From the NCBI RefSeq assembly GCF_002095575.1, contig NZ_MLJJ01000007.1:62001-126000 (forward strand): a DNA stretch of 64,000 nucleotides, written 5' to 3'. The number at the start of each line of letters is the position of its first letter. Position 1 is the first letter of the stretch. The position numbers and the translations under genes are program-made. The notes beneath the pieces are model-generated. The model was not told the DNA's origin and did no database searches. It saw only the letters and a program-made list of their open reading frames with translations. Below are positions 21,587 through 47,761 of the stretch, piece by piece. This DNA is from Pantoea septica. GTDB lineage: Bacteria > Pseudomonadota > Gammaproteobacteria > Enterobacterales > Enterobacteriaceae.

Positions 21587-21661
21587 GTCCCCTTAGTTAA
21601 ATGGATATAACGAGCCCCTCCTAAGGGCTAGTTGCAGGTTCGATTCCTGCAGGGGACACCA
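21587..21661 (+). tRNA. argW: tRNA-Arg(CCT)
   Basis: A complete 75-nt cloverleaf including the encoded CCA. The acceptor pairs GTCCCCT/AGGGGAC. The anticodon arm AGCCC-CTCCTAA-GGGCT carries CCT at 21620-21622. The T arm contains GGTTCGATTCC. It closely matches enterobacterial argW, a common phage attachment gene. It lies between two integrases that both point away from it. Confidence 0.95.
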
Positions 21662-21830
21662 TTCGAACATCTCCCACCGTCTTCTCAAGTCTACAAAACC
21701 CAGTAAATACAGCCACCCTAGCCCAAACTCATTATCTCAACGTCTATTAACGTCTATTGAAATCTACTCACACATGGGGGTACATTTGGGGGTAGATGCC
21801 TGTTCAATGAAAAGAGATACCCCCAATATG

Positions 21831-23042
21831 AAACTCAACGCCCGCCAGGTGGATACTGCCAAGGGAAAGGATAAGCCTTATAAGCTCTCTGATGGCGGTG
21901 GCCTGTATCTACTGGTTAACCCCAATGGCTCCCGTTACTGGCGACTAAAGTACCGTGCTGCAGGCAAAGAAAAGCTTCTGGCCGTCGGGGTATATCCTGA
22001 TGTGTCACTTGCTGATGCGCGAAGAAAGCGCGACGAAGCAAAAAAGGTGATCGCTGCTGGTGGCGATCCGGGGGTATTAAAGCAGGAAGAAAAGCGAGAG
22101 AAGGAGCGGGCTGTCGTAACTACTTTCAAATCGGTGGCTTTAGAATGGCACGCTTATAAATCTGCCAAGTGGACGGAAGAGTATGCCGATTCAATGCTGG
22201 CATGTCTTGAAATGGACGTATTCCCTTTTATTGGTAGAGCAGATATTACCAGCCTTACCCCTACCGATATGCTTGGTGTGCTGCAAAGGATGGAAGCGCG
22301 CAACGTTCTTCACAAGCTGAAAAAAGTCAGGCAGGCGTGTAAGCAGATTTACACCTTTGCCATCATTACTGGCAAGGCTCAGCTAAACCCGGTTTCTGAC
22401 TTGTCTGGAGCGCTGCTAACTCCAAAACAAAACCACTTCCCTCACCTTAACGTTGACCAGATGCCGGCATTCCTATCCTCGTTAAATGATTACAGCGGTA
22501 GTTTGCTGACTCGTAACGGCGCACGTTTGTTGATGCTCACCGGATTGCGTACGATTGAGCTACGCGCCTCAGAGTGGACCGATATCGATTTCGAAAAAGG
22601 CGTCTGGCAGATCCCCGCCGAACGAATGAAGATGAGACGCCCTCACCTTGTACCCCTTTCCAGGCAAGCTAAATCACTCTTAGAAGAAATCCACCAGCTC
22701 ACCGGGCGTGGGAAGTATGTCTTTCCTGGCAGAAACGATGCCGGGAAGCCAATGAGTGAGGCCAGCATCAATCAGGTGATCAAACGTATCGGGTATGACG
22801 GCAAAGCCACCGGGCATGGTTTCCGGCACACCATGAGTACCATCCTGCACGAACAGGGATACAACACAGCTTGGATTGAAACGCAGCTTGCTCACGTTGA
22901 TAAAAACAGCATTCGCGGCACCTACAACCACGCCCAATATCTGGACGGACGCAGGGAAATGCTTCAATGGTATGCCGACTATATGGATGCGCTGGAAAAG
23001 GGTGAAAATGTGGTTCATGGCACGTTTGGTAAGCGAGCGTAA
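21831..23042 (+). CDS. P4/IntS-type tyrosine integrase
   Basis: A 403-residue integrase from MKLNARQVDTAKGKDKPYK, the usual N-terminus of the IntS/P4 group; two earlier in-frame ATGs (21774, 21807) lie in the GGGGGTAC leader and look untranslated. DUF4102 arm-binding domain, core domain, then catalytic Arg in LTGLRTIELR, His-x-x-Arg in GHGFRHT, ETQLAHVDKN and Tyr in GTYNHAQYL. It starts about 170 bp after the argW 3' end and runs away from it, as in tRNA-integrated satellites. Confidence 0.95.
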   Translation, partial: KLNARQVDTAKGKDKPYKLSDGGGLYLLVNPNGSRYWRLKYRAAGKEKLLAVGVYPDVSLADARRKRDEAKKVIAAGGDPGVLKQEEKREKERAVVTTFKSVALEWHAYKSAKWTEEYADSMLACLEMDVFPFIGRADITSLTPTDMLGVLQRMEARNVLHKLKKVRQACKQIYTFAIITGKAQLNPVSDLSGALLTPKQNHFPHLNVDQMPAFLSSLNDYSGSLLTRNGARLLMLTGLRTIELRASEWTDIDFEKGVWQIPAERMKMRRPHLVPLSRQAKSLLEEIHQLTGRGKYVFPGRNDAGKPMSEASINQVIKRIGYDGKATGHGFRHTMSTILHEQGYNTAWIETQLAHVDKNSIRGTYNHAQYLDGRREMLQWYADYMDALEKGENVVHGTFGKRA

Positions 23043-23782: not shown

Positions 23783-23986
23783 ATGACTCCATCTAAAAAG
23801 TTAGTTCGTCTATCAGAGGTTTTAAGTAGAACTGGTTACAGCCGAGCATGGATTTATAAACTTATTTCACAAGGCCGTTTCCCTCCATCAGTAAAGATTG
23901 GTTCGCGCTCAATTGCCTTCGTCGAAAGTGAGATAGATGAGTGGATTGATCAGCGCATCGCTGATTCACGTGATGAGGTAGCCTGA
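23783..23986 (+). CDS. AlpA family regulator/excisionase
   Basis: A 67-residue winged helix-turn-helix protein: LVRLSEVLSRTGYSRAWIYKLISQGRFPPSVKIG, then a W(I/L)-ID.RI helix. AlpA proteins of P4-type elements activate integrase genes and act in excision (P4 Vis). Its TGATG stop-start overlap couples it to the next gene. Confidence 0.9.
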   Translation: MTPSKKLVRLSEVLSRTGYSRAWIYKLISQGRFPPSVKIGSRSIAFVESEIDEWIDQRIADSRDEVA

Positions 23987-24417: not shown

Positions 24418-25227
24418 ATGAGAACTGAAAAAAGCAGATTAATTTCTGAGGCCTCCCCTCAACCCACCACCAGCATCAACGATATTTCTGGCAACGACTT
24501 TGCCGCTATTGTCCCGGTGATTCCCGGCCAGATTGGCGGACGAGAAAGCAATATTGTGAGCGGAACATCGTTACATAAAGCGCTGGGGGTAGAAACCAGA
24601 ATGACCGACTGGATCAAGCGCCGCATCAGTGAGTATGGATTTAAGGAGGGTACGGATTACATCATTGCTGAAACTTTGCGCTCCTCAAATTTGAGTAGCT
24701 CAAAATCTCGCCGACAAGTCAGCCATGAATATTTGACCACGTTGAATATGGCCAAAGAGCTGGCAATGGTAGAGCGCAGCGAGCAGGGTCGCGCCGTGCG
24801 CCGTTACTTCATCCAGTGTGAAGAGGCATTACAGCTCAGCGTGCCGGAAATTGCCGCACAGTATCGCCGCCAGCTTAAAGCTCGCCTGAGTGCCGCGAAT
24901 ATGTTTAAACCGATGTGCGCCGCTCTGGATGCTGCCCGTGCTGAACAGGGTAAACAGACTTTACACCGTCATTACAGCAACGAAAGCAACATGATTGCCC
25001 GCATCGTGCTGGGTGGACTAACAGCCAAACAGTGGGCGCAGGTTAACGGAATAGATGGTGAGCCACGTGACGGCATGAATTCTGCCCAGCTCGAGCACCT
25101 AACCTATCTCGAAAGCACCAACATCACGCTGATTGATATGGGCATGGCATACGACCAACGCAAAGCAGAACTAATGCGGCTTTCTCAGCGTTGGTTGTCC
25201 AAACGTCTGGAGGCTGCACATGACTAA
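24418..25227 (+). CDS. AntA/AntB-type antirepressor
   Basis: A 269-residue protein. Residues about 40-130 form the AntA domain: VSGTSLHKALGVETRMTDW, KRRISEYGFKEGTDYI, YLTTLNMAKELAMVE and VRRYFIQCEEAL. The C-terminal half is helical with an HYSNESNMIARIVLGG segment. Such proteins bind phage repressors and relieve repression, so this gene may sense or influence the helper or co-resident prophage. GGAG lies eight bases before the ATG. Confidence 0.85.
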   Translation: MRTEKSRLISEASPQPTTSINDISGNDFAAIVPVIPGQIGGRESNIVSGTSLHKALGVETRMTDWIKRRISEYGFKEGTDYIIAETLRSSNLSSSKSRRQVSHEYLTTLNMAKELAMVERSEQGRAVRRYFIQCEEALQLSVPEIAAQYRRQLKARLSAANMFKPMCAALDAARAEQGKQTLHRHYSNESNMIARIVLGGLTAKQWAQVNGIDGEPRDGMNSAQLEHLTYLESTNITLIDMGMAYDQRKAELMRLSQRWLSKRLEAAHD

Positions 25228-25399
25228 ACCAACCAGCCAACCAGAACCCAATCAGCGTTATCAGGACGCCAGCGGCGCCATAGTGAAAGTACACAGTGTG
25301 CTATCTAATCGCGTGACGTTCTATAGGACCGGGTATGAGTCTCCATGCACATACTCAGTTGAGCGTTTCATCCGGGAGTTCACGGAGGTGGCTCAATGA
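25220..25399 (+). CDS. Small DUF4222-like protein
   Basis: A 59-residue frame overlapping the antirepressor stop by eight bases. QRYQDASGAIVKVHSVLSNRVTFYR, then C-YSVERFIREF, has the DUF4222 arrangement of a short beta domain with a terminal helix. Its stop overlaps the ATG of the next frame. It is a typical component of P4-type islands; function unknown. Confidence 0.6.
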   Translation: MTKPTSQPEPNQRYQDASGAIVKVHSVLSNRVTFYRTGYESPCTYSVERFIREFTEVAQ

Positions 25400-26112
25400 A
25401 TGCTGCGTCATGGTGTGGATCACAGCTGCGTGCAAAGCCGCATTTGGGCTTAGCCAAACTTAGCCAGACCTTAACCAATCTTAACGGCTACTCAGCCATA
25501 GATTCGGCTGAAAACCTGTCAAAACCTGACATGCCGAGCCGTAAGACATGGTCTTACGTTAGTTATGCCTGCTATCACAATCCGTCAAAAAACAGCTTGC
25601 TCAGGTCACAATATTCGGACTATGCTCAACCTTCACCGGCAAAATCCGGTGACAGGATTGGCGTCCTGGTTATGTTATCGGCGACATATGACGCGCCTAG
25701 CGTCTTTTTTTATGTCGTTAATCTAACTCACCCATTTTTCAGCGATGCGGTTATAATCCGTGCCGCTCACGAAGTAATGGTGGGCTGGATGGGGGCGGAG
25801 AAATCCGCGCCGGTTTCCGATAACGCCGGTTACGCCAACCCTGTTCAGTCCACCACCAGTGAAATTGGCGTTTCCGGTGGTGGTATCAAATACCAGTTAT
25901 CGGAGGCTGCCATCATGGCTACTGCCCTCACCCAAGTCACACCCAATTTTGAGTTTCGTTTTCTGGCTCTGTCACGCGCTGACATGAAGGCCAAGCCTTG
26001 CCGCGTATCTGTTGAGGCCATCAGCGAGAAAGAAGCTCGCCGCGTTCTGGCCCCTCATTTCATCCTGTCATTAGCCGCACGCCTGCCAGTTCAGGAGGTG
26101 GCGCATGTTTAA
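25396..26112 (+). CDS. Ash/Icd-like P4 reading frame
   Basis: A 238-residue open frame. GYANPVQSTTSEIGVSGGGIKYQL followed by MATALTQ...FEFRFLALSRAD, and the C-terminal REARRVLAPHFILSLAARLPVQEV pattern, match Ash/Icd-type products of P4 islands, where Icd inhibits host cell division. The real translated part may be only the C-terminal 65-70 residues from MATALTQVTP (25916). The DNA beneath carries a terminator and an immunity-RNA-like hairpin, so coding and RNA functions are superposed. Confidence 0.55.
   Translation: MNAASWCGSQLRAKPHLGLAKLSQTLTNLNGYSAIDSAENLSKPDMPSRKTWSYVSYACYHNPSKNSLLRSQYSDYAQPSPAKSGDRIGVLVMLSATYDAPSVFFYVVNLTHPFFSDAVIIRAAHEVMVGWMGAEKSAPVSDNAGYANPVQSTTSEIGVSGGGIKYQLSEAAIMATALTQVTPNFEFRFLALSRADMKAKPCRVSVEAISEKEARRVLAPHFILSLAARLPVQEVAHV
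25690..25711 (+). terminator. Terminator inside the immunity region
   Basis: GACGC-GCCTA-GCGTC followed by TTTTTTT. P4 controls its replication operon by premature termination in this region, and the hairpin fits that role. Confidence 0.65.
25811..25890 (+). ncRNA. P4-type immunity (CI) RNA-like segment
   Basis: CCACCACC (25850-25857) and GGTGGTGG (25876-25883) form a perfect stem around AGTGAAATTGGCGTTTCC. Direct GCCGGTT repeats lie just upstream at 25809 and 25825. A TATAAT box is at 25752-25757. In P4 a short RNA processed from this place pairs with the leader of the replication operon to cause termination. Identity rests on position and my recollection of the P4 sequence. Confidence 0.45.
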
Positions 26113-27680: not shown

Positions 27681-28037
27681 ATGACAATTATCACTAAAAA
27701 CTTCCGACTTAATGCGCTGGCCAACCAGTATTCAGCGGCCATTTATAACCATGTCAGGCAGCTGAACGGGGGCGACTGGTTCCCGATGGAAATCAGCGGG
27801 CGGAGGATTGAGGTTGCTATTGTGGATGGTTCATCCGGTATCAGGTTGCTGGTGGACAGCTTTCTGCTGGAGGCATTGAAGCAGGAACATCCACGCTGGG
27901 AGGCTCTGGCTGTCAATCTGTTGCCCCTCTGTATAGAGGGCGCCGAACTGAGCGAGCGAGGGGAAAATATCTGGCAAGGCATGATTAACGACATGAGCGC
28001 CACCCTCTCGAATAAAGGGAGTAACTTCAATGCGTAA
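27681..28037 (+). CDS. P4-island protein of 118 residues, unknown function
   Basis: An alpha-beta protein (FPMEISGRRIEVAIVDGSSGIRLLVDSFLLEAL). GGGAGAT precedes the ATG, and its last eight bases overlap the primase start. Unknown family. Confidence 0.55.
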   Translation: MTIITKNFRLNALANQYSAAIYNHVRQLNGGDWFPMEISGRRIEVAIVDGSSGIRLLVDSFLLEALKQEHPRWEALAVNLLPLCIEGAELSERGENIWQGMINDMSATLSNKGSNFNA

Positions 28038-30813
28038 TTATGACCTTATCCGGGAGACGACAAGCGCAGCGGCTAACCGCTGGCCGCTGGTGCTGAGCCA
28101 GTTGGGAATTAAAGTCCCCCGCTCGCCCCGCCAGCACGCGCCCTGCCCGGCCTGCGGTGGTGTTGACCGCTTTCGCTTCGATGACAAAGGGCGTGGCAGC
28201 TTCTTCTGCAATCAATGCGGTGCGGGTGATGGCTTAGACCTGATCCAGAAAGTTAACGAGTGCGGGGTAACTGAGGCCGCACGCATGGCTGCTGATGTGC
28301 TGGGTATTGATTACCGGGCAACAGAAACTGACCAGAAAGCAGCCAGCCAGAGAAGGCAGCAGCTTGATGAGCAGCGCCACCAGCAGGAGCAGGAGCGCCA
28401 GCAGAAAGAGTCAGCTGAGGCCGCACACCGTCGCGATAATTTTGTGAGCCACTACCAGAGGCTGGCAGAGCAATCCACTCTACGTGAAAGCGAATACCTG
28501 ATTGCCAAAGGGCTCGACGCCTTCACCCTGCCGTGCCTGCCCGATGGATCAATTCTGCTTTCGCTGGTGGATGAATCCGGCGATGTAGCAGCAGCTCAGA
28601 CCATTACGCCTCAGGGCGAAAAAAAGGTGCTCTATGGCTCTGCAAAGCGCGGGGCGTGGCACCTCGTTAACCAGCCGCAGGACGTAAGCGAAATCATCAT
28701 TGGTGAAGGTCTGGCTACGACGCTCACCGCTCACCAGATACGCCCCACAGCGCTCGCTGTCGTGGCTCTTGATGCCGGTAACCTGCTGCCCGTCGCTCAA
28801 GCTATGCGCCAGCGGTACCCGGAAGCCTCAATCATCATCGCCGGCGATAACGACTGGCATGAACCGGGTGAGCTCGACGACCACGGCAGGCCGAAAGTTA
28901 ACGGGGGAAAGATATTCGCCCTAAAAGCTGCTGAAGCCGTTAATGGCTCTGTCTCATTACCCCCCACCAGCTACAAGGCTGACTGGGATGATTACCGCCA
29001 GCAAAACGGGCTGGATAACACCACTACAGCATTTAACGAATCATTGTACCAACCGCAGGGGGAAAGCATGGGCGCTCAACTGGAAGTGATTGAAGGCGGC
29101 AAAGCAACAGCGCCGGATCGCGACTCGCTAAAACCCCGGATTGAAAGCCGTCAGGATGGTGTGTATTGGGTTGAGCCAAACACCGATAAGCAGACCGGGG
29201 AAATCATCAACCGTGAAAGCTGGTTGTGCTCTCCTCTGCAGGTGATCGGTACCGGGCGCGATGACAAAGACCAGTACCTGATACTTCGCTGGCTGGCGTG
29301 GGGTTCAGACAGCGAAACCACACAGGCTATTCCGCTTGCTGACATTGGTGAGCGAGAAGGATGGAGAACGCTCAAAGCTGGTGGCGTGAACGTAACAACT
29401 AAAAGCGGCCTGAGAGCAATTCTGGCGGACTGGCTACAGCGGAACGGGTCAAAGGAGGTCTGGAGAGTGGCGCACGCTACAGGGTGGCAGTGCGGCGCTT
29501 ATATCATGCCTGACGGGGAGATCATCGGTGCGCCTGATAAGCCGGTACTGTTCAATGGCCGCAGTTCTGCCGCAGCCGGTTACACCAGCAGGGGAAGCGC
29601 TGAAAGCTGGCGCCAAAGCGTTGGAGCGCTGGCCGCCGGTAACTATTCAATGATGACTGGCGTTGCTGCGGCGCTGGCTGCCCCGCTGATTGGCCTGGCG
29701 GGTGCTGATGGCTTCGGCATTCACTTCTACGAGCAATCAAGCGCCGGTAAAACCACCACCGCCAATGTGGCCAGCAGCCTCTACGGTAATCCTGACCAGC
29801 TGCGCCTGACGTGGTACGGCACCGCGTTAGGCCTGGCTAACGAAGCTGCCGCCCATAATGATGCGCTGATGCCACTGGATGAGGTGGGGCAAGGCGCTGA
29901 TCCGGTTAGCGTCTCACAGTCAGCCTATGCGCTCTTTAACGGCGTGGGGAAACTGCAGGGAGCCAAAGAAGGCGGTAACCGTGACCTGAAGCGCTGGCGC
30001 ACAGTGGCGATCAGCACCGGCGAGATGGATTTAGAAACCTTCATCGCTATGGCGGGCCGTAAAGCGAAGGCCGGGCAACTGGTCAGGCTGCTGAATATCC
30101 CACTGAGTAAGGCTGTGAGATTCCACCAGCACGAGAACGGCAAGCAGCACGCCGACGCGCTGAAGGATGCCTGGCAGAATCACCACGGCGTAGCAGGCCG
30201 GGAGTGGATTAAATGGCTAGCCGGCAATCAACAGCAGGCTACTGAAACAGTCAGAGAGGCAGAGGCGCGCTGGCGCGGTCTGATACCGGCAGAATATGGC
30301 GAGCAGGTTCATCGCGTAGGCGCACGCTTCGCCATTCTTGAGGCTGCGCTACTGCTGGGCCGCGTTATCACTGGATGGGACGAGCAGACGTGCCGCGACG
30401 CCGTTCAGCACAGCTATAACGCCTGGGTGAGAGAGTTTGGTACCGGCAACAAAGAACATCAGCAGATCATCGCCCAGTGTGAAGCGTTTTTAAACGCCAA
30501 TGGCTACAGCCGGTTTGCCCCTTTCCCGTATGACCCTCAATCGCTTCCTATCCGCGATATGGCTGGCTATCGCGCCAGCGGCAACCATGACGATGATCCG
30601 ATCGTCTTTTACACCTTCCCGGCAACGTTCGAGCAGGAGATAGCCAGTGGATTCAACCCCAAGCAGTTCGCCCGGGTGCTGGCAGAGAGCGGCATGCTGA
30701 CACCACCGACCAGCGGCAGAGGATTCCAGCGTAAGTCTCCGCGGATTAACAAACGTCAGTACAACGTCTATGTAATCCAGTACCGGCCAGAGGATGAGGC
30801 TCAGGAAGAGTAA
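28030..30813 (+). CDS. P4 alpha-like primase-helicase (DUF927)
   Basis: A 927-residue replication protein. Residues about 35-75 form a primase zinc ribbon (CPACGGVDRFRFD, FFCNQCGAGDG). A Toprim-like region follows (EIIIGEGLATTLTAH, VVALDAGNL, IIAGDND) near residues 220-275. The C-terminal DUF927 helicase has Walker A in YEQSSAGKTTTANV near residue 570 and an acidic Walker B (MPLDEVGQGAD). P4 alpha combines primase, helicase and origin binding. The iteron array just downstream is the likely target. Confidence 0.93.
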   Translation: MRNYDLIRETTSAAANRWPLVLSQLGIKVPRSPRQHAPCPACGGVDRFRFDDKGRGSFFCNQCGAGDGLDLIQKVNECGVTEAARMAADVLGIDYRATETDQKAASQRRQQLDEQRHQQEQERQQKESAEAAHRRDNFVSHYQRLAEQSTLRESEYLIAKGLDAFTLPCLPDGSILLSLVDESGDVAAAQTITPQGEKKVLYGSAKRGAWHLVNQPQDVSEIIIGEGLATTLTAHQIRPTALAVVALDAGNLLPVAQAMRQRYPEASIIIAGDNDWHEPGELDDHGRPKVNGGKIFALKAAEAVNGSVSLPPTSYKADWDDYRQQNGLDNTTTAFNESLYQPQGESMGAQLEVIEGGKATAPDRDSLKPRIESRQDGVYWVEPNTDKQTGEIINRESWLCSPLQVIGTGRDDKDQYLILRWLAWGSDSETTQAIPLADIGEREGWRTLKAGGVNVTTKSGLRAILADWLQRNGSKEVWRVAHATGWQCGAYIMPDGEIIGAPDKPVLFNGRSSAAAGYTSRGSAESWRQSVGALAAGNYSMMTGVAAALAAPLIGLAGADGFGIHFYEQSSAGKTTTANVASSLYGNPDQLRLTWYGTALGLANEAAAHNDALMPLDEVGQGADPVSVSQSAYALFNGVGKLQGAKEGGNRDLKRWRTVAISTGEMDLETFIAMAGRKAKAGQLVRLLNIPLSKAVRFHQHENGKQHADALKDAWQNHHGVAGREWIKWLAGNQQQATETVREAEARWRGLIPAEYGEQVHRVGARFAILEAALLLGRVITGWDEQTCRDAVQHSYNAWVREFGTGNKEHQQIIAQCEAFLNANGYSRFAPFPYDPQSLPIRDMAGYRASGNHDDDPIVFYTFPATFEQEIASGFNPKQFARVLAESGMLTPPTSGRGFQRKSPRINKRQYNVYVIQYRPEDEAQEE

Positions 30814-31360: not shown

Positions 31361-31717
31361 ATGAAAAAGGTTTTGGCAGTGGCGCTTGGGGCGTTGTTAC
31401 TTTCAGGATGTACTGTGCGTGTCGCTGATATGACTGTCGCAAGCACCAAAAACTACAACTTGAACGCAGCTAAGTTTGAGAAAGGTGCTCGCGTGACCGG
31501 CGAAGATAAAGCGCCAATCGTAATTTTCCCTTTAGGTATTCCGAACGTTAAAACGGCTATGGATCACGCTATTGAGAAAGATAAGTGTGCAGTTGGCTTG
31601 AGCGATGTGGTTATCTACCAGTTAAACCACGCCTTCCTCTTCGGCACATACGGTTTCCGTGTTGAGGGTACGCAAATTATCGACAAATCACAGATGGGAT
31701 GTGAAAACCACATCTGA
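31361..31717 (+). CDS. Small outer-membrane lipoprotein
   Basis: A 118-residue protein with a signal peptide and lipobox LLLSGC at residues 12-17. The mature part has V-VADMTVASTKNYNL and DHAIEKDKCAVGLSDVVIY, resembling enterobacterial lipoproteins of unknown function found on islands. A second Cys pair could form a disulfide. It has its own terminator, so it is an independent cargo unit. Confidence 0.75.
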   Translation: MKKVLAVALGALLLSGCTVRVADMTVASTKNYNLNAAKFEKGARVTGEDKAPIVIFPLGIPNVKTAMDHAIEKDKCAVGLSDVVIYQLNHAFLFGTYGFRVEGTQIIDKSQMGCENHI

Positions 31718-32972: not shown

Positions 32973-33087
32973 ATGAGCAAAATATTCGATCAAAACGATC
33001 CAATCATCATTTCATAAATCGGCATATAAATAGAGATCGTTTCACTTTTTGCAATTATAATCACTGTATATTTATCAGGAGGTGGTT

Positions 33088-33261
33088 ATGCAAAAGTGCA
33101 CAGTAAAAACAGTCCTCATTAAAGTCGAACAGTATGAAGAACTCCGTAAATTACAGGAAAAAGAGCGAGCAAAATCCCCTCTAGGTGTTGCCCCAACAAT
33201 TCACGTTATCGCTCGCGGCCTGATGGATAAGGCATTGGCTCAACTTGCTCAGGAGGCGTAA
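33088..33261 (+). CDS. Small regulator-like protein starting the tail module
   Basis: A 57-residue frame, MQKCTVKTVLIKVEQYEELRKLQEKERAK then a hydrophobic helix. CAGGAGGTGG is a strong ribosome site, and the stop TAATG overlaps the next start. The beta strand-helix-helix look suggests a ribbon-helix-helix regulator. Family unknown. Confidence 0.55.
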   Translation: MQKCTVKTVLIKVEQYEELRKLQEKERAKSPLGVAPTIHVIARGLMDKALAQLAQEA

Positions 33262-33587
33262 TGGAACAATTACAACGCCTGGCCGAAGCTGTTGCGGACG
33301 CTTACCTTCGTAATCGGCTCCGAGAGCATGGGAATACTCAGTTTTCGCATGACGGAAAAACAGGTGAAATTCGCCGTGATTTACTGGCGTCCGGGCTGGT
33401 GGATAACTGCGTTTATGCTGCCCGAAATAGCGGCAAGGCCGATTATGAACAGGAGGCATACTCAATGCTAATGGAGATGATTTCTCTGGACGGCAGAGAG
33501 TACCGGGTAACAGACCACGGCCTGAACGTAATCGAACATATGCATCGCATAGCGCTGGTTAAAGCCACGCCCCGCGTCAATCATTAA
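33261..33587 (+). CDS. Small protein upstream of the tape measure gene
   Basis: A 108-residue protein: MEQLQRLAEAVADAYLRNRLREHG, then a mixed alpha-beta part. AGGAGG precedes the ATG, which is coupled to the preceding gene. It ends nine bases before the tape measure ATG and may be a chaperone or regulator for that module. No family is recognised. Confidence 0.55.
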   Translation: MEQLQRLAEAVADAYLRNRLREHGNTQFSHDGKTGEIRRDLLASGLVDNCVYAARNSGKADYEQEAYSMLMEMISLDGREYRVTDHGLNVIEHMHRIALVKATPRVNH

Positions 33588-33596
33588 GGGGGATGA

Positions 33597-36170
33597 ATGG
33601 CTGATACCAAATTAGGGGGCGTCTATTACGAAGTTGATATTGATCTGGAGAAGGCCCTTGAAGCAAATCAGCAACTCAAGCGAGAGCTGAAGGCACTAAG
33701 TGACAATGCCAAGAACTCCGCAGGTGGAATCAAAACGCTTGAGACACAGGCCAAAACCACTGCCACAGCGGTCAACCAAGCCACTAAAGCAGGAGGCGCT
33801 TTCCGCAGCCAGTTCCAGCAAGCCGGTTATCAGATTCAGGATTTCATCGTACAGGTTCAGGGCGGACAATCTGCACTGGTCGCTTTCAGTCAGCAAGGTT
33901 CTCAATTGGCGGGAGCATTTGGCCCAGGTGGTGCCATTGTGGGCGCGGTGATTGCTTTGGGTACAGTAATCGCAGGCACGTTAATTACCGCTTTAAACGG
34001 CGGTAAAAACGCAATGGATGCTCTCCGAGAAGCAGCAGACGCAATGGATAAGGTGATCACCATTTCACAAAATGGGGTAGCCGCGCTGTCAGATAAGTAT
34101 GCAAATCTTGCCAGGGTAAACGCAGAAGTTGCCACGCTGATGAGAAATCAGGTGCTGCTGGAATACAACCAGGCAATGACGAAGGTTTCAAAGACTATAT
34201 CTGATACCACCAGCGAGTTTTTCTCCTTTGGCGATACAGCTAAAGCCGCACTGTCTGGCGGCACAGTCAGTGTTAAGTTGCTTAGCACTATCCTTGACGC
34301 CGCTGAAGTCAAAACCAATAACTTCACCGATGCGTTCAATGAGATAAGCAAAAGCAGCATTGCGAACGAAGCGACTATCTCAACATTTACAAACACCGTT
34401 GGGGCATTATCTTCCCGGCTGGGTATTACTGATCAAGCTGCTTTTGAACTGGCAAAACAGCTGAATGACCTAAGTAAAAACCCTTCTCCACAGGCATTAA
34501 CTACCTTAGCTATTCGCCTGCAAAATATGACCTCATCTAGCAAGGAGGGACAGGAACAAATCACCAGTCTGTCTAAGACGTTAGTAGGATTAGCTGTAGA
34601 AGCTACCAACGCTAAATTAAACATGGATAGCCTCAAGCGCACCACTGACAACCTAACTGACGGGCAGAAAAACCTGTTAAAGCAGGCAGAACGAAACCTC
34701 TCGCTGTCAAAACTTCAGGGAGAAGCTCGCGCCCGACTCGCAGCCCAATATGCTGCTGAAGATGCAGGATTTGCTAAAGACGACCCTCACGCCAAAAAGA
34801 CGGAAGATGATGCGGCCGCCACTTATAAAAATTTAGAAGCGACGAAGCAGCTTAACTCTGAGCAGAAGAAATCAGCCGGCCAGGCATCCCGTAATGCTCA
34901 GGTACTGGAACAGTATCGGCAAAAGGCCGAGCTTTCTGCTGATTCGGTTGATGGACTATCCCGTGCTCAGGCAGTTCTTCAGGCACGTCAGAAACTGGTA
35001 AACCCTACACCAGCTCAAATAGCGCAGGTAGAGAAGGATGCTGGCGCAGCGTGGGATAAAGCCGCCGCAATACGCGCTCAGGCAGCGGCTATGAAGCTAA
35101 TCCCGGAGCAGGCAGAGAACACTCGATACAAACAAGATGTTGCCGATCTCAAAACCGCCCTGGAACAAAAGACCATCACACAGAAGCAGCACGACACGGC
35201 TGCCGAGCAGATGGAGCAACAGCACCAGGTAAATTTAGCCCGAATAAGGGCCACGCAGAACGTCGGAGTTACCCCACTGCAGGAAGCACAAGGCGCTATC
35301 GATCCTGTTCAGGCAATGGCTAATGAGAACGCCAAAAAGCTCGCATTAATACAGGAGTTCGAAACCGCTAAGGGGCAAATCACCCTCAATGGTCTGGCAT
35401 TGATGAATGCTGCTAACACGCAGTATGAGCAACAGCGCATCGCTGCTCAGTGGGAGATATACCGCAACCAGAGCGCCGCTAACAGCCTGCTGGCTGACGC
35501 GGTTGATTCTCTTCAAGGTGGCGCGACAAATGCCATTACCGGCCTTCTGAATGGCACTCAGAGCCTTAGTGAAGCATTCGCCAACATCGGAAGCACGATC
35601 CTCAACAGCGTTGTGAGTGGGCTGGTGGAGATGGGCCTACAGTATGTGAAAAACATGGTTATGGGGCAGGTGGCGGCATCAGCGGCACTTGGAGCAACAG
35701 CAACTCAGGCTACTGCCGCTGCGGGCATGTGGGGACCAGCAGCTGTGAGCGCCTCTATCGCCACTATGGGTACAGCCTCAACTGTTGGCACAACGGCCTA
35801 CTCAACCGCATTGATGGCTTCCAAAGGGCTGGCAGTAGCTGGAGCCCGTGAGCATGGCGGGCCTGTTCTGGCTAACTCAATGTACCGGGTAGGTGAAGGC
35901 GGTAAGCCCGAAATCTTCAAGGCGTCTAACGGCAGCCAGTACATGATCCCGGGTGATAACGGCTCTGTTATCAGCAATAAGGATATTGGCAACGCTAATG
36001 GTAGTGGTGGTGTGAGCCTGGAAGTCAATTTCAACATCACTACCACTAACGGTATTGATGAAGCCACACAGAAGCAAATGGCCCAGCAAATGGAAATAGT
36101 TGCCCTGAAAGTCGCGCGGGAGCAAAGCACGCGTGATGGGGGCTTTCTTCAAAAGCGGATTAGGAAGTAA
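33597..36170 (+). CDS. Tail tape measure-like protein
   Basis: An 857-residue protein with tape measure features. It has a long helical, Ala/Gln-rich body, a hydrophobic Gly-rich membrane-active stretch near residues 95-140 (QGSQLAGAFGPGGAIVGAVIALGTVIAGTLI), and coiled-coil blocks. The C-terminal region ends with GLAVAGAREHGGPVLANSMYRVGEGGKPEIF, common in tape measures of long-tailed phages. In phages this sets tail length and delivers DNA. Here it stands in a P4-type satellite without other tail or head genes, which is unusual. Confidence 0.82.
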   Translation: MADTKLGGVYYEVDIDLEKALEANQQLKRELKALSDNAKNSAGGIKTLETQAKTTATAVNQATKAGGAFRSQFQQAGYQIQDFIVQVQGGQSALVAFSQQGSQLAGAFGPGGAIVGAVIALGTVIAGTLITALNGGKNAMDALREAADAMDKVITISQNGVAALSDKYANLARVNAEVATLMRNQVLLEYNQAMTKVSKTISDTTSEFFSFGDTAKAALSGGTVSVKLLSTILDAAEVKTNNFTDAFNEISKSSIANEATISTFTNTVGALSSRLGITDQAAFELAKQLNDLSKNPSPQALTTLAIRLQNMTSSSKEGQEQITSLSKTLVGLAVEATNAKLNMDSLKRTTDNLTDGQKNLLKQAERNLSLSKLQGEARARLAAQYAAEDAGFAKDDPHAKKTEDDAAATYKNLEATKQLNSEQKKSAGQASRNAQVLEQYRQKAELSADSVDGLSRAQAVLQARQKLVNPTPAQIAQVEKDAGAAWDKAAAIRAQAAAMKLIPEQAENTRYKQDVADLKTALEQKTITQKQHDTAAEQMEQQHQVNLARIRATQNVGVTPLQEAQGAIDPVQAMANENAKKLALIQEFETAKGQITLNGLALMNAANTQYEQQRIAAQWEIYRNQSAANSLLADAVDSLQGGATNAITGLLNGTQSLSEAFANIGSTILNSVVSGLVEMGLQYVKNMVMGQVAASAALGATATQATAAAGMWGPAAVSASIATMGTASTVGTTAYSTALMASKGLAVAGAREHGGPVLANSMYRVGEGGKPEIFKASNGSQYMIPGDNGSVISNKDIGNANGSGGVSLEVNFNITTTNGIDEATQKQMAQQMEIVALKVAREQSTRDGGFLQKRIRK

Positions 36171-36251
36171 TTGAACGGTCGCAGGGACGCGATCATGTTG
36201 AGTTTGGTCAAGGTGAAACGGGTATGAGAAATAGCGAAAGGTGGCAGACAG

Positions 36252-36686
36252 ATGCCTGACAGCACGAAAGAACAGGCCAGCCGTGATAAAGGCGGCAAAT
36301 GGAAGAAAGGCGCATCGGGTAATCCCGGTGGGCGCAGCAGCAAAGCAGCTGAACTGAGGCGTGTGCTGGAAGGTGGCGCTGATGATGCTGTGAAAACCAT
36401 CATGGACGCGGCTAAAGAAGGCGATATGGCTGCTTGTCGCCTCATCCTGGACAGAGTTGTCCCGCCGAGTAAGCCGGTTTATCAGCCTGTTTCGTTTGAG
36501 CTGGACGACAGCGATTTACCTGCAGCAGCCCGTTCGGTAATTAAGGCGATAGCCGCGGGAGAACTGCCGGCCGACCAAGGGAAAATGATTCTGGATGGCC
36601 TGGCGAACATGGCGAAGATTATCGAAATTACAGAACTGGCTGAGCGTGTAGCTGAGCTGGAGAAAGCACAGGAGAGCGGACAATGA
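36252..36686 (+). CDS. DUF5681 domain protein
   Basis: A 144-residue protein. GKWKKGASGNPGGRSSKAAELRRVLE is the DUF5681 start, a short DNA-binding-like domain often found in phage proteins related to packaging. VVPPSKPVYQPVSFELDDSDLPAAARSVI and a C-terminal coiled coil (LAERVAELEKAQ) follow. It overlaps the next gene by four bases. A terminase-small-subunit-like role is possible but unproven. Confidence 0.75.
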   Translation: MPDSTKEQASRDKGGKWKKGASGNPGGRSSKAAELRRVLEGGADDAVKTIMDAAKEGDMAACRLILDRVVPPSKPVYQPVSFELDDSDLPAAARSVIKAIAAGELPADQGKMILDGLANMAKIIEITELAERVAELEKAQESGQ

Positions 36687-36901
36687 GCCTGTTAAGACGA
36701 ATTGAAGCACTGGAAGCCACCAGCAGCGCCCAGACCAACAGCGGCGGCCCTGATGAAATATGGTTAATCGGTGTTAGCCCTGACGGTTCACGCGAGTGTA
36801 GGGGCGGCTGGGTCAAGGATGAAGGGCTTTTCCGCAACGCCACAGCTGAAGAAGCACAGCGACATAATCAGCTTATCCTGCAGTGGGATCATCATGGGTA
36901 G
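36683..36901 (+). CDS. Small coiled-coil protein 1 of 3
   Basis: A 72-residue protein. MSLLRRIEALEATSS is a short N-terminal coiled coil, followed by an acidic domain (DEIWLIGVSPDGSRECRGGW). It overlaps the DUF5681 stop and the next start. The next two products begin in the same manner, so the three may be duplicated. Confidence 0.6.
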   Translation: MSLLRRIEALEATSSAQTNSGGPDEIWLIGVSPDGSRECRGGWVKDEGLFRNATAEEAQRHNQLILQWDHHG

Positions 36902-37112
36902 CCTGCTGGCGCGACTGAACCGGCTGGAAAAGACCATGACGCCCAAGGATGGCGATACACAGGTGATTTCAGCCCTGATGGATGAGTTAGCAGGCAATGC
37001 CCCTGCAGGAGTGTATGAGAGGGCCATAGAGCGCCTGTCACTGCGCGGGCATAACTTCCCGCAGTCACCAGAACTGAGAGTGTTGCTAATGGGCGGTAAC
37101 GATGAACATTAA
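36894..37112 (+). CDS. Small coiled-coil protein 2 of 3
   Basis: A 72-residue protein from MGSLLARLNRLEKTMTPKD. The start lies eight bases inside the preceding gene; a longer upstream frame is a shadow of that gene. The body is helical (VYERAIERLSLRGHNFP). Function unknown. Confidence 0.6.
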   Translation: MGSLLARLNRLEKTMTPKDGDTQVISALMDELAGNAPAGVYERAIERLSLRGHNFPQSPELRVLLMGGNDEH

Positions 37113-37326
37113 AGCTCGCCTGGCTGCGCTGGAGAAGGTAGCTAGAGATAAAGGCAGCAAATCCATTGACGGGCCACAGCCACCCGTCAGAGCGGACTAT
37201 GTGCGCGAGGATGGCACCTTTGATCATGTTGGTTACAGAGCGGCGACTGACCAATGGAGCATCGAGGTATTTGGCAAGCCGTTGGCGCTGGTGGCCGAAG
37301 AGATCGCAGAAGCTGAGGATTTCTAA
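37102..37326 (+). CDS. Small coiled-coil protein 3 of 3
   Basis: A 74-residue protein, MNIKARLAALEKVARDKG then DYVREDGTFDHVGYRAATDQW. It starts 11 bases inside the previous gene and ends six bases before the DUF6246-like gene. Function unknown. Confidence 0.6.
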   Translation: MNIKARLAALEKVARDKGSKSIDGPQPPVRADYVREDGTFDHVGYRAATDQWSIEVFGKPLALVAEEIAEAEDF

Positions 37327-37331
37327 CTGAC

Positions 37332-38006
37332 ATGACACCATTGAAAGAGATTGGCGAATGCCTGGTAATTGACGGCGATGATGAATACTTTTTCCGTCCG
37401 TCCCTGATAGCCATGTCGAGTATTGGTGAGCCCGGCGAGATTGTTTCAACGTTCCATGCGCTACACAGCAACGAGGCAACGACATTACTGCGCCGAGCCT
37501 ATGATGCTTATGGAGCCATTCCCCACTGGGTGACCGAGTACGCTAAGCGGCCTGAGTTCACCAAGCCAGCAATATATGCCGCTATGGATGTGTTAACCGC
37601 CTGCTGTAATCGTGACGCTTCACCGCTGGTGGGTGTGCTGGTGCCGAGCAAAACCAAAAAGCGAACCTTCCTGCATCGTCGCGGAAAGATGCCAGCCACA
37701 GACATGATTATCTTTGCGCAGTCCCTGATGATACACGGCATTATCGGCAAGGCTAAAGTGCGCCGGCTTCAGCGCCATGAGGACGGGCAGACCACCAGCG
37801 AATTCAACGCATTCGAGTACATCAGCGCCGCTCGTAATCACTTTGGTATGAGCAGAGATGAAGCGGAACAGCTTACCATGACCGAGTTCACCATGCTGCT
37901 GGCGGCCAAGTATCCTGATCAGAAGGGCTTTACGCGGGAAGAGTACGAGCAGGTAGCTGATGATTATTTCGAGCGAAAGGCACGGAAGCTGGCCAAGGCT
38001 GCGTAA
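37332..38006 (+). CDS. DUF6246-like protein, tail-associated
   Basis: A 224-residue protein. IGECLVIDGDDEYFFRPSLIAMSSIGEPGEIVSTFHAL and the C-terminal NAFEYISAARNHFGMSRDEAEQLTMTEFTMLLAAKYP resemble DUF6246 proteins, which I associate with tail gene clusters. The C-terminal helix resembles tail assembly chaperone T-like domains. It would fit a partner of the tape measure protein, though here it lies downstream of it. Confidence 0.55.
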   Translation: MTPLKEIGECLVIDGDDEYFFRPSLIAMSSIGEPGEIVSTFHALHSNEATTLLRRAYDAYGAIPHWVTEYAKRPEFTKPAIYAAMDVLTACCNRDASPLVGVLVPSKTKKRTFLHRRGKMPATDMIIFAQSLMIHGIIGKAKVRRLQRHEDGQTTSEFNAFEYISAARNHFGMSRDEAEQLTMTEFTMLLAAKYPDQKGFTREEYEQVADDYFERKARKLAKAA

Positions 38007-40537: not shown

Positions 40538-40972
40538 CTAATTTTTTCCTTTAAAGAGATCGTATTCATCCCATGCTGCAAAGCCTATTGGTCTCTTGGG
40601 CTCCTCAGGATTTAAACGCTTTTTCTTTATCAACAAAACATTAATCTGGCTGACGTGCTGTACTAGTTCAACAGGGCTACCATCTTCAAGTTGGCCTATG
40701 AAAGAAATAAGAGAGGGGTTCCAGTAGCCGATATCTGTAAAGTGGAATTCAATACTTCTGCCAAAGCTAGCTAATTGGCCGCCTACCTCGTGCTCGTTAT
40801 CGAGGTCACGGTGAAAGTCGTTTATCCAGCATATCAATCGACGGTGAAACTCATCTGCAAGATTGTGATTTTTAGGTGGGTGAATTACTGGGAGCCTGTT
40901 CATGTTGTCCATTATGGCTTGCATGTTTTCTAGGCCGGCGCTAGACAAGCCAAAAAGATTTTTATCAGTCAT
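40538..40972 (-). CDS. DUF6173 family protein
   Basis: A 144-residue protein. FHRRLICWINDFHRDLDNEHEVGGQLASFG, FHFTDIGYWNPSLISFIGQ and PVELVQHVSQINVLLI match the DUF6173 pattern. The family is widespread on mobile DNA and in phages; function unknown. It lies on the opposite strand just beyond the defence-like cassette. Confidence 0.75.
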   Translation of the reverse strand: MTDKNLFGLSSAGLENMQAIMDNMNRLPVIHPPKNHNLADEFHRRLICWINDFHRDLDNEHEVGGQLASFGRSIEFHFTDIGYWNPSLISFIGQLEDGSPVELVQHVSQINVLLIKKKRLNPEEPKRPIGFAAWDEYDLFKGKN

Positions 40973-42105: not shown

Positions 42106-42540
42106 CTAATTTCTGAGCATGGCCGCATCGACTTTAGCTTTATGGTCTGCCTGACGTTTCCATGCGCTATATATATCTTTAGTCCACGCCTTACCAGCTT
42201 TCGTCTGATAGCCTGCATCGTTAAGTCGTTCTGCGATGATGCGACCATTGTCAAAGCCCTGATTGATAGTCTCTGCAATGATGCGGATCACCTCCTGTTC
42301 ATCGTATGGCAAACCCGGCACACCCTGCTTACCGATGATAAGAGCAGCCGCGGCCACTTCCATACGTTCCACCAGCGACATTAAGCGAGCGTTAGGATTA
42401 GTCTCTGGCAGGCTCATCTTCTGCCGAATAGCATCGACCAGCCATGCTGTTTTATCACCACCAGCAGCGCTAACAGCATCAGTAAAAGCTTCGCTTAGTT
42501 CGGCTGGTACACGGAAAGTAACGGAAAGGGATTTGCTCAT
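42106..42540 (-). CDS. RHH protein with recombinase-like C-terminal helix-turn-helix
   Basis: A 144-residue protein. The N-terminus SKSLSVTFRVPAELSEAFTDAVSAAGGDKTAWLVDAI is a ribbon-helix-helix domain. The C-terminus YDEQEVIRIIAETINQGFDNGRIIAERLNDAGYQTKAGKAWT resembles the helical domain following serine-recombinase catalytic domains. It sits next to the second iteron cluster, so it may regulate copy number or cargo. A truncated copy lies at 40.34-40.51 kb. Confidence 0.65.
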   Translation of the reverse strand: MSKSLSVTFRVPAELSEAFTDAVSAAGGDKTAWLVDAIRQKMSLPETNPNARLMSLVERMEVAAAALIIGKQGVPGLPYDEQEVIRIIAETINQGFDNGRIIAERLNDAGYQTKAGKAWTKDIYSAWKRQADHKAKVDAAMLRN

Positions 42541-43205: not shown

Positions 43206-43764
43206 GCGCTCACTGAGTTAACAATAAGAAATACAAAGCCTTCTGATAAACCTGTCAAATTGACAGACGGTAATGGTATGCATCATTCCCGGAAAGCGAC
43301 AACCTATGAAGGGGGTAAAATATTCTGCAAGAGGGGCAAAGATGAAAACCCCACATCTGGCTCCACTAAGCACTCAAGCTAAAGCGCTCCTGGAAGAGCT
43401 TCACTCGATCAGTAGTGATAAAGAACTTATGTTCAATAGTTTTACCAGGGACGACAAACTTGTCAGTGCAAACACCCTCAACAAAGCACTCAGGACGATG
43501 GGCTACGATACGAAAGCAGAAGCCTGCGGGCATGGTGTCAGGACTATAGCGTGTGCCTTAATCGAATCGGGGTTATGGTCGAGAGATGCTGTGGAAAGAC
43601 AAATCAGCCACCAGGAACGCAACAGTGTCCGAGCTGCATACATACATCAAGCGGAGCATTTGGAAGAACGGAGACTTATGTTGCAATGGTGGGCTGACTA
43701 CCTCGAAGCATGTAAAAAAGGGGCACTAACACCTTTCTCCTTTTCAAAAGGTTCAGGATTTTGA
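43206..43764 (+). pseudogene. P4-type integrase with large internal deletion
   Basis: The frame from 43206 reads MALTELTIRNTKPSDKPVKL then TDGNGMH, the N-terminus of P4-family integrases. It then drops about 250 residues and leaves frame. From about 43315 another frame gives the catalytic C-terminus: TPHLAPLSTQAKALLEELHS, GHGVRTIACALIESG, SHQERNSVRAAYIHQAEHLEERR. The active-site Arg block of the middle is missing, so no active enzyme can be made. It marks the left end of the decayed island. Confidence 0.88.
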
Positions 43765-44019: not shown

Positions 44020-44823
44020 ATGAAAGGAATCGATAAAAGACTAATCATCTTCACCACAAAAAAAAGATTCAATGACAGAAATGCCGATGACATGCAAAGT
44101 GGCGACATGGATGTTGATACACTGAAAAAGCATTATCATCTTGGACAAGTATCAACTTTCATAGACTGGAATACTTTTGGTCCCTCTTATCAGCATCCCG
44201 CTACTAACTCCATCCGGCCAGTTAGTAGAGAAAGAGCCATAGGGATGTTATACGATGAACTGAGATCTCAGGGCTATGTCTTTTCTTTCCGAGGACCATA
44301 CCAGGGCTTGATCATAGATCTTTTCAATCATATGCAGCGCAGTAATGGAAAAGATTATCAGCATCCGACTATGAACAATGCCTACAGAAATCTCATTTTG
44401 AGTGACAACTCTGCCGATAGCACATTATCCATAATTAAAAACACTATCGAGCAATTTGATTTCAACAAGTCCGAATTGACGAAAGAACATTCTTCAGCTG
44501 TGTTATCTAAAAGCCATTTACCTAAATACACAAGATGGAAAGATTTCATCAATGGTATGGGGATTACCGTCCATGACATAAACAGCACAGAAATTTCTAT
44601 CGAAAGCTTGACCTTCCAGGGAAATAAATATACTGCGGTTGTCAAATACAGAGCACAAGACCATTTTGGCTTAGATAAAGAAGATATATTAAAGGCTAAA
44701 TTCAACTCTATTACTTTCTTTAGAATATGGTTCGTTTTACAGAGGGCTAAGCATTTGACTCAAAAGCCATTTTTCACAAATTTCGAAGCCACTATAACAT
44801 TGACAGGAGAAAACAATGTTTAA
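44020..44823 (+). CDS. DUF3289 family protein, unit 1
   Basis: A 267-residue protein. The family pattern is visible: IFTTKKRFNDRNADDMQSGD, the LYDELRSQGYVFSFRGPYQGL block, FINGMGITVHD and QDHFGLDKEDI...FFRIWFVLQRA. It is more AT-rich and divergent than units 2-4 and lacks their repeated leader. Its end overlaps the DUF943 gene by eight bases. DUF3289-DUF943 pairs recur in enterobacteria, and an effector plus immunity relationship is plausible but not shown. Confidence 0.8.
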   Translation: MKGIDKRLIIFTTKKRFNDRNADDMQSGDMDVDTLKKHYHLGQVSTFIDWNTFGPSYQHPATNSIRPVSRERAIGMLYDELRSQGYVFSFRGPYQGLIIDLFNHMQRSNGKDYQHPTMNNAYRNLILSDNSADSTLSIIKNTIEQFDFNKSELTKEHSSAVLSKSHLPKYTRWKDFINGMGITVHDINSTEISIESLTFQGNKYTAVVKYRAQDHFGLDKEDILKAKFNSITFFRIWFVLQRAKHLTQKPFFTNFEATITLTGENNV

Positions 44824-45268
44824 CTATAAAAGGATTGGAGTAATTTTAGTTTCTTTAATAATAGCATACTGCATATGGATTATTATAAGACCAGCTAAAA
44901 TAGTCAGAATTGATAATGGTGCGGTTTTTGTAGAACATTTACCGATGACTACAGAAGGGAAACTAAACTGGTGGTTGAAAAACAGAGAGTTACTTGAGAA
45001 TAAATATCACATCTTCAATACCCCTAATAACTTCACAGTTACCGTCATGAATTTCGGTGGTTATGAAAAATTACCAACCGGAACCAGAGATGGTTCAATT
45101 GATGACTATACTTGCTTTAATGATACTAATGGCGAGCATAAGAAATGTGTTTATAACAGCATAGCGTTAGTCGTTAGGGGTAGCCTAAATGGTAAAGTTT
45201 TTATAACAATAGACGGTAAAACTTATCTTCAAACCGGTAATGATAAAGCTATAATTTATAAAAAGTAA
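44816..45268 (+). CDS. DUF943 family membrane protein, unit 1
   Basis: A 150-residue protein. It has an N-terminal membrane helix (IGVILVSLIIAYCIWIII), then RPAKIVRIDNGAVFVEHLPMTTEGKLNWWLKNRELLENKY, the hallmark of DUF943, and a periplasmic beta domain with a Cys pair (DDYTCFND...KKCVY). It would be the immunity or partner protein of the upstream DUF3289. Confidence 0.8.
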   Translation: MFNYKRIGVILVSLIIAYCIWIIIRPAKIVRIDNGAVFVEHLPMTTEGKLNWWLKNRELLENKYHIFNTPNNFTVTVMNFGGYEKLPTGTRDGSIDDYTCFNDTNGEHKKCVYNSIALVVRGSLNGKVFITIDGKTYLQTGNDKAIIYKK

Positions 45269-45299
45269 GCCATGTAATCCAAGGCACAATTGAAAATAA

Positions 45300-45507
45300 A
45301 AAATACTTTTAGCATTAATGCTTTTTACTCCTTTATCATTTGCCGATTCTAATGTTAAAGGTGCGGAAACAGCCGCGCTGAATTTCAACAAAGGGTATGT
45401 TGATTAGCTTATGCAGGATAAATCTCATCTGACTGATTACTCATCCATTTCAAAATATGTAACAAGTGACACGATCAGTACTTTGAAGAAGCTATACTGC
45501 GGGGATA
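45300..45507 (+). pseudogene. DUF3828-like exported protein fragment
   Basis: One frame reads LLALMLFTPLSFADSNVKGA then ETAALNFNKGYVD, TAG, then LMQDKSHLTDYSSISKYVTS and DTISTLKKLYC. This matches exported DUF3828 proteins (signal peptide, A-L-FN-WY, L-DY, YVT-DTL). The start codon is damaged, an internal TAG interrupts it, and the 3' end is replaced by tape measure DNA. Confidence 0.55.
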
Positions 45508-45775: not shown

Positions 45776-45802
45776 AGCGACCACTATCCCCCTGCCTGGA
45801 AT

Positions 45803-47212: not shown

Positions 47213-47390
47213 TCTTTGCCGCCCTCGCGTAGAGACAGCAATAAAATCATCCCCTGCCCGGCTTGCATCAGCCCTGCATAAGTATCATAAGCTCAGGAGG
47301 CTATCTCGACGGAGAGAAAAGCGGCAACGCCTTACCGCCTGCCTTAACCCTCTTTCAGTAAGACGATTGCGTGGATGGCGACCGTAACAG

Positions 47391-47733: not shown

Positions 47734-47761
47734 ATTGTCCACTATTCCCCTGTCCGAAAAC

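Follow-up and report, generated by a model that had tools for sequence, protein, structure and literature searches.

A tail tape measure module in a DUF927-primase phage satellite of Pantoea septica and the slot it occupies in related islands

Known piracy by phage satellites concerns packaging, capsid size or the wholesale supply of capsids. Capsid-forming phage-inducible chromosomal islands (cf-PICIs) reportedly make their own capsids and steal tails, and P4, which integrates beside a tRNA gene, has to our knowledge no tape measure protein. Here we discuss a tail tape measure protein (TMP) module at positions 33088-38006 of a stretch of 64,000 nucleotides from Pantoea septica (contig NZ_MLJJ01000007.1, positions 62,001 to 126,000, forward strand), the whole of which is called the window. 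The module is real and lies far above chance, because its gene order recurs in independent genomes and its TMP has a ratio of nonsynonymous to synonymous substitution rates (dN/dS) of 0.038 against L172, a 4.7-kb IMG/VR fragment. Judged from its genes, the element that carries the module is a phage satellite with a DUF927 primase, a PICI of the EcCIMP1 type. We give an even chance to the module being the entry cassette of this satellite, re-equipping helper virions with a conduit of its own.

Like a cf-PICI, the element would supply some virion parts and leave the rest to its helper, but here the part is a tail or entry component. No capsid, portal or TerL match was found among the scanned window open reading frames (ORFs), that is, all except the integrase, the ORFs at 23783, 26649, 26834, 30878, 50526, 51361 and 52004, and minor ORFs. 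TerL (PF03237) had no match in the window's genome, against six positive among 14 control genomes; other TerL models and the P22-type capsid and portal models were not run. With P4 the element shares the N-terminal part of the primase (residues 7-342 are 34% identical to P4 alpha), an Ash family protein and integration beside a tRNA gene. However, the C-terminal half of the window primase/helicase is DUF927, so that alpha is not matched along its whole length, and Sid, Psu and delta had no match among the scanned ORFs. The order of integrase, AlpA-like helix-turn-helix (HTH) protein, AntA, DUF4222, Ash, DUF927 primase and the 57-residue ORF m57, followed by entry proteins, is that of EcCIMP1, whose m57-like ORF is 62% identical to m57. 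The P4-type label of the original prediction therefore fits only loosely: the primase N-terminus and Ash agree with it, the DUF927 half and the gene order do not. EcCIMP1 itself differs in its cassette, which consists of P22-type ejection proteins, whereas the window has a siphophage TMP, a TerS-like protein and a DUF6246 protein. The phage-inducible chromosomal minimalist islands (PICMIs) are likewise small satellites without capsid remodelling, but they have a reduced gene set, and the term tape measure was not found in the accessible text of PMC10803314.

Siphophage late regions (Klebsiella phage ST101-KPC2phi6.1 and the Pantoea prophages G047 and G028) share a homologous TMP (55-66%) and DUF6246 with the window, and phi6.1 also has a homologue of the 108-residue protein m108. 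In these regions DUF6246 lies before the TMP, whereas in the window it comes after the TMP and the other late genes are absent. In phi6.1 the DUF6246 gene sits between an Ig-like-domain gene, probably that of the major tail protein, and the TMP gene; DUF6246 may thus occupy the tail-assembly-chaperone position in phages. A tape-measure or ejection-protein slot in satellites is not described in the open-access titles and abstract openings among the matches listed, to which subscription papers and preprints did not belong. The main text of the P4-like survey PMC8628076 has no tape measure, ejection, injection or DUF927, and no swappable slot is described in the accessible text of the EcCIMP1 paper (PMC11773190).

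The module consists of eight plus-strand ORFs of 57, 108, 857, 144, 72, 72, 74 and 224 residues, and stop and start codons overlap between several neighbours. In the list below, DUF927 loci are 80 loci from IMG/VR, the best 80 of 175 primase matches, and identities refer to related islands in Pantoea agglomerans HJS002 (L025), Pantoea sp. 1.19 (L026/G288) and the genomes G173, G218 and G441.

33088..33261, + strand: m57, a 57-residue marker ORF at the head of the slot, present in 53 of the 80 DUF927 loci
33261..33587, + strand: m108, a 108-residue TMP-associated protein, present in all 19 m57 loci (18 contigs) having this TMP family
33597..36170, + strand: tail tape measure protein, 857 residues, phrog_1538
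36252..36686, + strand: DUF5681 protein (PF18932), 144 residues, likely a small terminase subunit
36683..36901, + strand: small protein of 72 residues, 92% in L025 and 77% in G218
36894..37112, + strand: small protein of 72 residues, 92% in L025 and 38-51% in G173, G288 and G441
37102..37326, + strand: small protein of 74 residues, 84% in L025
37332..38006, + strand: DUF6246 protein, 224 residues (PF19759, E 3.3e-77; phrog_791)

The 857-residue protein belongs to the TMP family by a full-length match: residues 4-842 align to positions 3-797 of the 811 of the phrog_1538 profile (E 2.4e-165). Four same-genus prophage TMPs (G028, G047, G001 and G021) are 54-66% identical to it over 754-869 aligned columns. 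A homologue of m108 was found in one of 50,697 phage records, where it lies two genes upstream of the TMP, and m108 is absent next to the TMP of another family in G173. Its AlphaFold2 model (predicted local distance difference test, pLDDT, 89) had no fold match in PDB or among viral folds, and from topology and position m108 is a possible TMP chaperone. The m57 model (pLDDT 90) has an extended N-terminal stretch followed by two helices, a topology that looks ribbon-helix-helix-like, and had no fold match in PDB. Both m57 and m108 are nearly confined to satellites. The first of the two 72-residue proteins was assigned to no family in profile scans, and in the compared satellites DUF6246 is found only as a 34-residue remnant, in L025. 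A private, intact and selected tape-measure module in a satellite, as originally predicted, was thus borne out. The further idea that the module might build a whole tail was not, since only the TMP, m108, DUF6246 and, in relatives, a neck protein are present.

The same module is found in relatives. The order of DUF927 primase, m57, m108, TMP, DUF5681 and small proteins occurs in L025 with a TMP of 1051 residues and in Pantoea sp. 1.19 with a TMP of 1046 residues, and a broken copy lies in Lonsdalea britannica (L024). When the DUF5681 protein was used as a family-wide query, five of 392 genomes matched, the window's included, and all five matches are such islands. The DUF927 primase is nearly whole-length in four of them and covers residues 1-360 only in G441, whose TMP has 1202 residues. 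The G173 island has kept the DUF5681 protein with a TMP of another family (phrog_2854), and the G218 island has no TMP and an m108 that matches at its start only. Absence from all similar satellites, which would have spoken against the original prediction, is therefore not what is seen. None of 14 other same-genus TMP loci (17-40 kb each) has a DUF927 primase; DUF6246 precedes the TMP in phage-like order in 13 of them, G056 being without DUF6246, and the G047 locus resembles by eye an ordinary siphophage late region.

In a TMP tree of 33 rows made by a quick method, without the 516-residue partial row P_G005 and the duplicate S_L171, the satellite rows fall into four groups amid prophage and phage rows, and satellite TMPs were therefore acquired repeatedly. 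At least three changes between satellite and prophage are forced, against a shuffled mean of 10.5, and the TMPs of the window and L172 form a group of their own on a branch of 0.40. The length of a siphophage TMP sets tail length, and the window TMP is at the short end, that of L025 having 1051 residues; the satellite TMP could accordingly give helper particles shorter or longer tails. However, satellite TMPs (857-1202 residues) overlap in length with those of prophages and phages (794-1243 residues, the partial row excluded), and sister satellites hold podophage conduit proteins in the same slot. A tail-length role cannot be the common function, because P22- and T7-type ejection proteins have no tail length to set, and as the main role of the module it is very improbable. 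The original suggestion of a piracy distinct from capsid remodelling stands as a possibility, but without a change in tail length as its main role; such changes may occur as a side effect.

The TMP gene of the window is intact and under purifying selection. Against L172 all 857 of 857 codons align with 95.2% identity, dN is 0.026 and dS 0.677. The DUF5681 (TerS-like) gene has dN/dS values of 0.02-0.05, and gene pairs from other cassettes have mostly 0.06-0.31, with 0.47 for c49 and dS undefined for two; for some pairs dS is saturated or undefined. Purifying selection holds for most of the genes in other modules as well. In the Lonsdalea copy, frameshifts affect the 108-residue ORF, the TMP and the DUF5681 gene, as expected if the module were an ordinary prophage remnant. 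For the window that explanation is extremely improbable, given dN/dS values of 0.02-0.05 for the TMP and TerS-like genes, the recurrent gene order, the near restriction of m57 and m108 to satellites and the lack of head genes of the tested families. Decay, an outcome named beforehand as one that would undo the original prediction, was rejected for the window on dN/dS and holds for the Lonsdalea copy.

The position after m57 is a slot with varied contents. A recognised entry or tail-tip module comes next in 49 of the 53 DUF927 loci with m57, and entry or tail-tip genes are also found in eight of the 27 without it. Modules were typed in 55 m57 loci (L171 and L172 were added; L112 and L171 are one contig), the PHROG identity of each module cluster being that of one representative.

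Siphophage TMP: 20 of 55 m57 loci
Myophage-type TMP, mostly with baseplate hub: 10 of 55
T7-like or podophage internal proteins: 6 of 55
P22-type ejection: 5 of 55
LT (lytic transglycosylase)/TMP-like: 4 of 55
Baseplate hub alone: 3 of 55
Myophage TMP/baseplate of another type: 3 of 55
No module: 4 of 55

Proteins of these kinds build the entry conduit, and on family assignments the shared denominator of the slot is DNA-entry machinery. Their partners include TerS-type genes (DUF5681, Sf6-type PF20901 and the weaker phrog_57) and a neck or tail-completion protein (phrog_5). Head genes were sought in 39 of the 53 m57 contigs, hand-picked and up to 28 kb long: TerL (PF03237) and the HK97 capsid were found in none of the 39, and the portal in two, as sub-threshold fragments with a stop.

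A promoter-like element precedes m57 across module types.

33020..33087, + strand: predicted promoter/operator, a TATAAT-like box followed by CTG-N9/10-CAG half-sites, conserved before m57

Of 64 loci, 47 have an exact CTG-N9/10-CAG in the 75 bases before the m57 match, usually preceded by the TATAAT-like box; in shuffled controls the mean was 0.7 and the maximum 3 of 64. Nine further loci have CTGTATAA with the closing CAG missing, and eight have neither. The spacing is N9 in 32 of the 64 loci and N10 in 15. LexA boxes have N10 spacing, and control of the m57 promoter by LexA is not claimed since its spacing is mostly N9.

The slot bears on whether packaging alone could explain the module. 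The DUF5681 protein matches PF18932 at E 9.4e-7 (29.8 bits against a cut-off of 27.5). It is likely a small terminase subunit, because a distant relative in Salmonella phage seszw (30% identical, E 1e-4), the one phage whose context was read, is encoded directly upstream of TerL. Just before the TerS-like gene is a conserved block.

36171..36251, + strand: conserved non-coding block of about 80 bp, candidate cos/pac site

The window, L025, L024 and G288 have near-identical copies of the block, despite an identity of just 41% for the TerS-like protein of G288; the block is partly retained in G218 and L172 and was not seen in G173 and G441. That it is a cos/pac site is a guess. It showed no strand-fold signal (z -0.98) and no Rfam family. 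A search of 61 same-genus genomes matched it in the two satellites alone. An 18-mer of the block occurs in nine IMG/VR contigs, of which L087 is a satellite and the other eight have non-matching flanks, and the phage collection gave short matches only; the attempt to identify a helper through the block failed, the non-satellite matches being short or having unlike flanks. It might be argued that only the TerS-like protein and the cos/pac site matter and that the conduit genes hitchhike from recombination with prophage late regions, as TerS-like genes recur across several module types and G218 keeps its own without a TMP. However, the conduit gene is the more constant of the two, no TerS-like cluster is found in P22- or T7-type cassettes or in most of those with a phrog_1538 TMP, and purifying selection acts on the conduit genes, all of which makes packaging alone quite improbable.

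Islands of this type also occur in E. coli. The primase, as a query at a distant setting, matched 1087 of 5426 E. coli genomes, and an E. coli primase query covered at least 80% of the primase in 384 genomes. A 7.1-kb block of primase, m57 and ejection genes is at least 80% present in 266 E. coli genomes. Eleven annotated E. coli-type islands, hand-chosen from ranked lists (EcCIMP1 from its paper, and one plasmid record), were compared. Ejection genes follow the m57-like ORF directly in seven, among them one whose gp16-like gene is incomplete and one in which the gp20-like gene and the primase are; in L175 an injection gene lies further downstream. The plasmid record (L174, NZ_CP148430) is a 12-kb circle with an island of the family that has kept m57 and has no ejection genes, and may represent an excised satellite that the assembly rendered as a plasmid. 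In E. coli H233, H237 and H238, where the islands have a DUF5906 primase, the matched block includes an ejection-protein gene, and the slot may extend beyond DUF927 satellites.

EcCIMP1, from E. coli MP1, is the one island of this type for which excision and transfer by a helper have been shown. As far as the accessible text of PMC11773190 goes, its circular form was seen only when the helper Kapi1 was present. Kapi1 is a P22-like phage (Lederbergvirus), and the four genes of the gp14-7-20-16-like block of EcCIMP1 are ordered as Kapi1 055-058 are, with identities of 83% (DUF2824/phrog_651), 57% (gp7-like), 26% (gp20-like) and 24% (gp16-like). The two head-side proteins match those of Kapi1, but the gp20- and gp16-like conduit proteins scarcely do. 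Two other roles have to be weighed here. The satellite TMP and ejection proteins could act as decoys, poisoning the assembly of helper tails or heads or titrating helper chaperones, and so lower helper yield. Tail assembly inhibition (Tai) by satellite- and prophage-encoded proteins is known, and the Tai genes of PICIs lie downstream of the primase as the window module does, according to the accessible part of PMC11364771. But a fragment would suffice as a decoy, and the scanned genes, which include transglycosylase domains and have a baseplate hub or neck gene as partner, are complete or almost complete; moreover, Kapi1 titres were not lowered by EcCIMP1 in the available text of PMC11773190. 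Interference is therefore unlikely. Alternatively, the cassette proteins could be made in the carrier cell and keep out phages that use the same type of entry. According to the same text, EcCIMP1 adds to the immunity of Kapi1 lysogens to superinfection, and none of its genes was recognised by the authors as a known defence gene; in the window a lipoprotein ORF lies just upstream of the module. However, EcCIMP1 was without effect on Kapi1 infection of non-lysogens in that text, and in the systems covered by the accessible part of PMC10883804, exclusion is directed at TMPs and ejection proteins and not exerted by them. Such an immunity role is slightly harder to credit than interference.

The entry-cassette reading rests on the genes being intact, the purifying selection, the recurring slot, the other conduit proteins that fill it and the tested head genes not being found. 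In this reading, induction of the helper would lead to expression of the satellite TMP under the m57 promoter, m108 and DUF6246 being its likely chaperones, and the satellite TMP would replace that of the helper in helper-made tails. Packaging of satellite DNA would be directed by the TerS-like protein together with the neighbouring conserved block. On infection the TMP would be delivered into the recipient envelope to form the DNA conduit, so that entry would be by the conduit of the satellite and not of the helper. The likeliest gain would be access to cells that block the helper conduit, through superinfection exclusion (Sie) by resident prophages, or that are without its inner-membrane partner. 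Virion incorporation, the Sie or receptor benefit, the chaperone roles and the cos/pac function are what we infer. Exclusion of this kind is described in the accessible part of PMC10883804: SieA exclusion in P22 acts on gp16 and gp20, P22 proteins whose EcCIMP1 counterparts are the two least like those of Kapi1; P22 hybrids carrying HK620 ejection genes are partly SieA-resistant, and gp16 and gp20 of Sf6 are jointly functional in P22. There, too, HK97 hybrids with the tail tube and TMP genes of HK022 escape exclusion, and TMP or tail changes evade exclusion of the HK97 and TP-J34 types.

Several points weigh against this reading. The TMP-bearing satellites are known here from genes alone, the primase was not seen on the L172 fragment (which has m57, m108 and TMP), the module has decayed in Lonsdalea, and in G218 the TerS-like gene is under selection though the TMP is absent. 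A search of the window's genome found no resident prophage carrying this TMP or DUF6246, no other such gene and no Terminase_6N match, so that the helper is probably not co-resident. No entry module was recognised, by similarity to the found clusters, in 23 of the 80 DUF927 loci, and because IMG/VR is chosen for viral genes the module fractions are biased upward; three of the 11 annotated E. coli-type islands are without ejection genes. As far as the accessible text of PMC11773190 goes, Kapi1 transduces EcCIMP1 at a very low rate and the superinfection immunity reported for carriers fits a different role. A Kapi1-like prophage is present in only two of 21 EcCIMP1 strains. In the accessible part of PMC10883804, foreign gp16 or gp20 alone is non-functional in P22, and the low gp16 and gp20 identities may be the divergence known among P22-like phages.

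The remainder of the satellite lies on both sides of the module.

21587..21661, + strand: tRNA-Arg (CCT), probable integration site (ARAGORN)
21774..23042, + strand: tyrosine integrase, 422 residues, 63-75% to the satellite integrases of G173, G218 and G288
23783..23986, + strand: AlpA/excisionase-like small HTH protein, 67 residues; the ORF in the same place is 66% in L024 and 29% in L025
24418..25227, + strand: AntA/AntB antirepressor (PF08346, E 2e-20)
25220..25399, + strand: DUF4222 protein (PF13973, E 3e-20)
25396..26112, + strand: Ash (P4 epsilon) family protein (PF10554, E 1.5e-24)
28030..30813, + strand: Toprim and DUF927 primase/helicase, 927 residues (PF06048, E 2.6e-50)
31361..31717, + strand: lipoprotein-like ORF, 118 residues (phrog_7441), 100% in G218
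42106..42540, - strand: conserved protein of 144 residues on the far side of the module, 67-82% in G042/L025, G218, G288/L026 and G441, truncated in L024

The integrase ORF begins 113 bases downstream of the tRNA-Arg gene, and a search downstream within the window, with up to three mismatches allowed, did not find the 15-base end of the tRNA gene again. The L025 ORF at the AlpA-like position matches phrog_66, an excisionase/regulator. The window primase is 69-93% identical to its relatives over nearly its full length, and 59% to the partial match in G441. Two lipoprotein-like ORFs separate primase and module in the window. Prophage G009 has a 76% copy of the 118-residue one, placed between DUF6246 and the TMP. 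The exclusion lipoprotein of TP-J34 targets the TMP, according to a reference title cited in PMC10883804, and by analogy an exclusion role is conceivable for the 118-residue ORF. The defence-like label first given to the cassette from 38.7 kb onward was not confirmed. A DUF6173 protein is encoded on the minus strand at 40541-40972, in the cargo region. A C-terminal integrase-like fragment of 163 residues at 43273-43764, 62% identical to part of the L077 integrase region, suggests a composite island or the remnant of a second element. The cargo end (44020-52000) has tandemly repeated DUF3289/DUF943 gene pairs, with DUF3289 copies at 44020, 45913 and 47870 and a fourth, by sequence likeness only, at 50526.

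For the family, we consider it possible, with somewhat less confidence than for the entry cassette itself, that these enterobacterial satellites share one regulated, swappable conduit slot matched to the type of helper. The helper-facing parts would be kept and the envelope-facing parts replaced, giving entry into cells that exclude the helper, helper lysogens included. If this is true, satellites would have taken over one more step, the DNA-entry conduit, beyond the capsid. This would account for the entry of a helper-packaged satellite into cells that already carry and exclude that helper, and would offer a reading for the unexplained 'DNA transfer' genes of EcCIMP1. Tape measure and ejection proteins would become testable determinants of satellite host range, and m57 with its promoter would serve as a marker by which such elements may be found.

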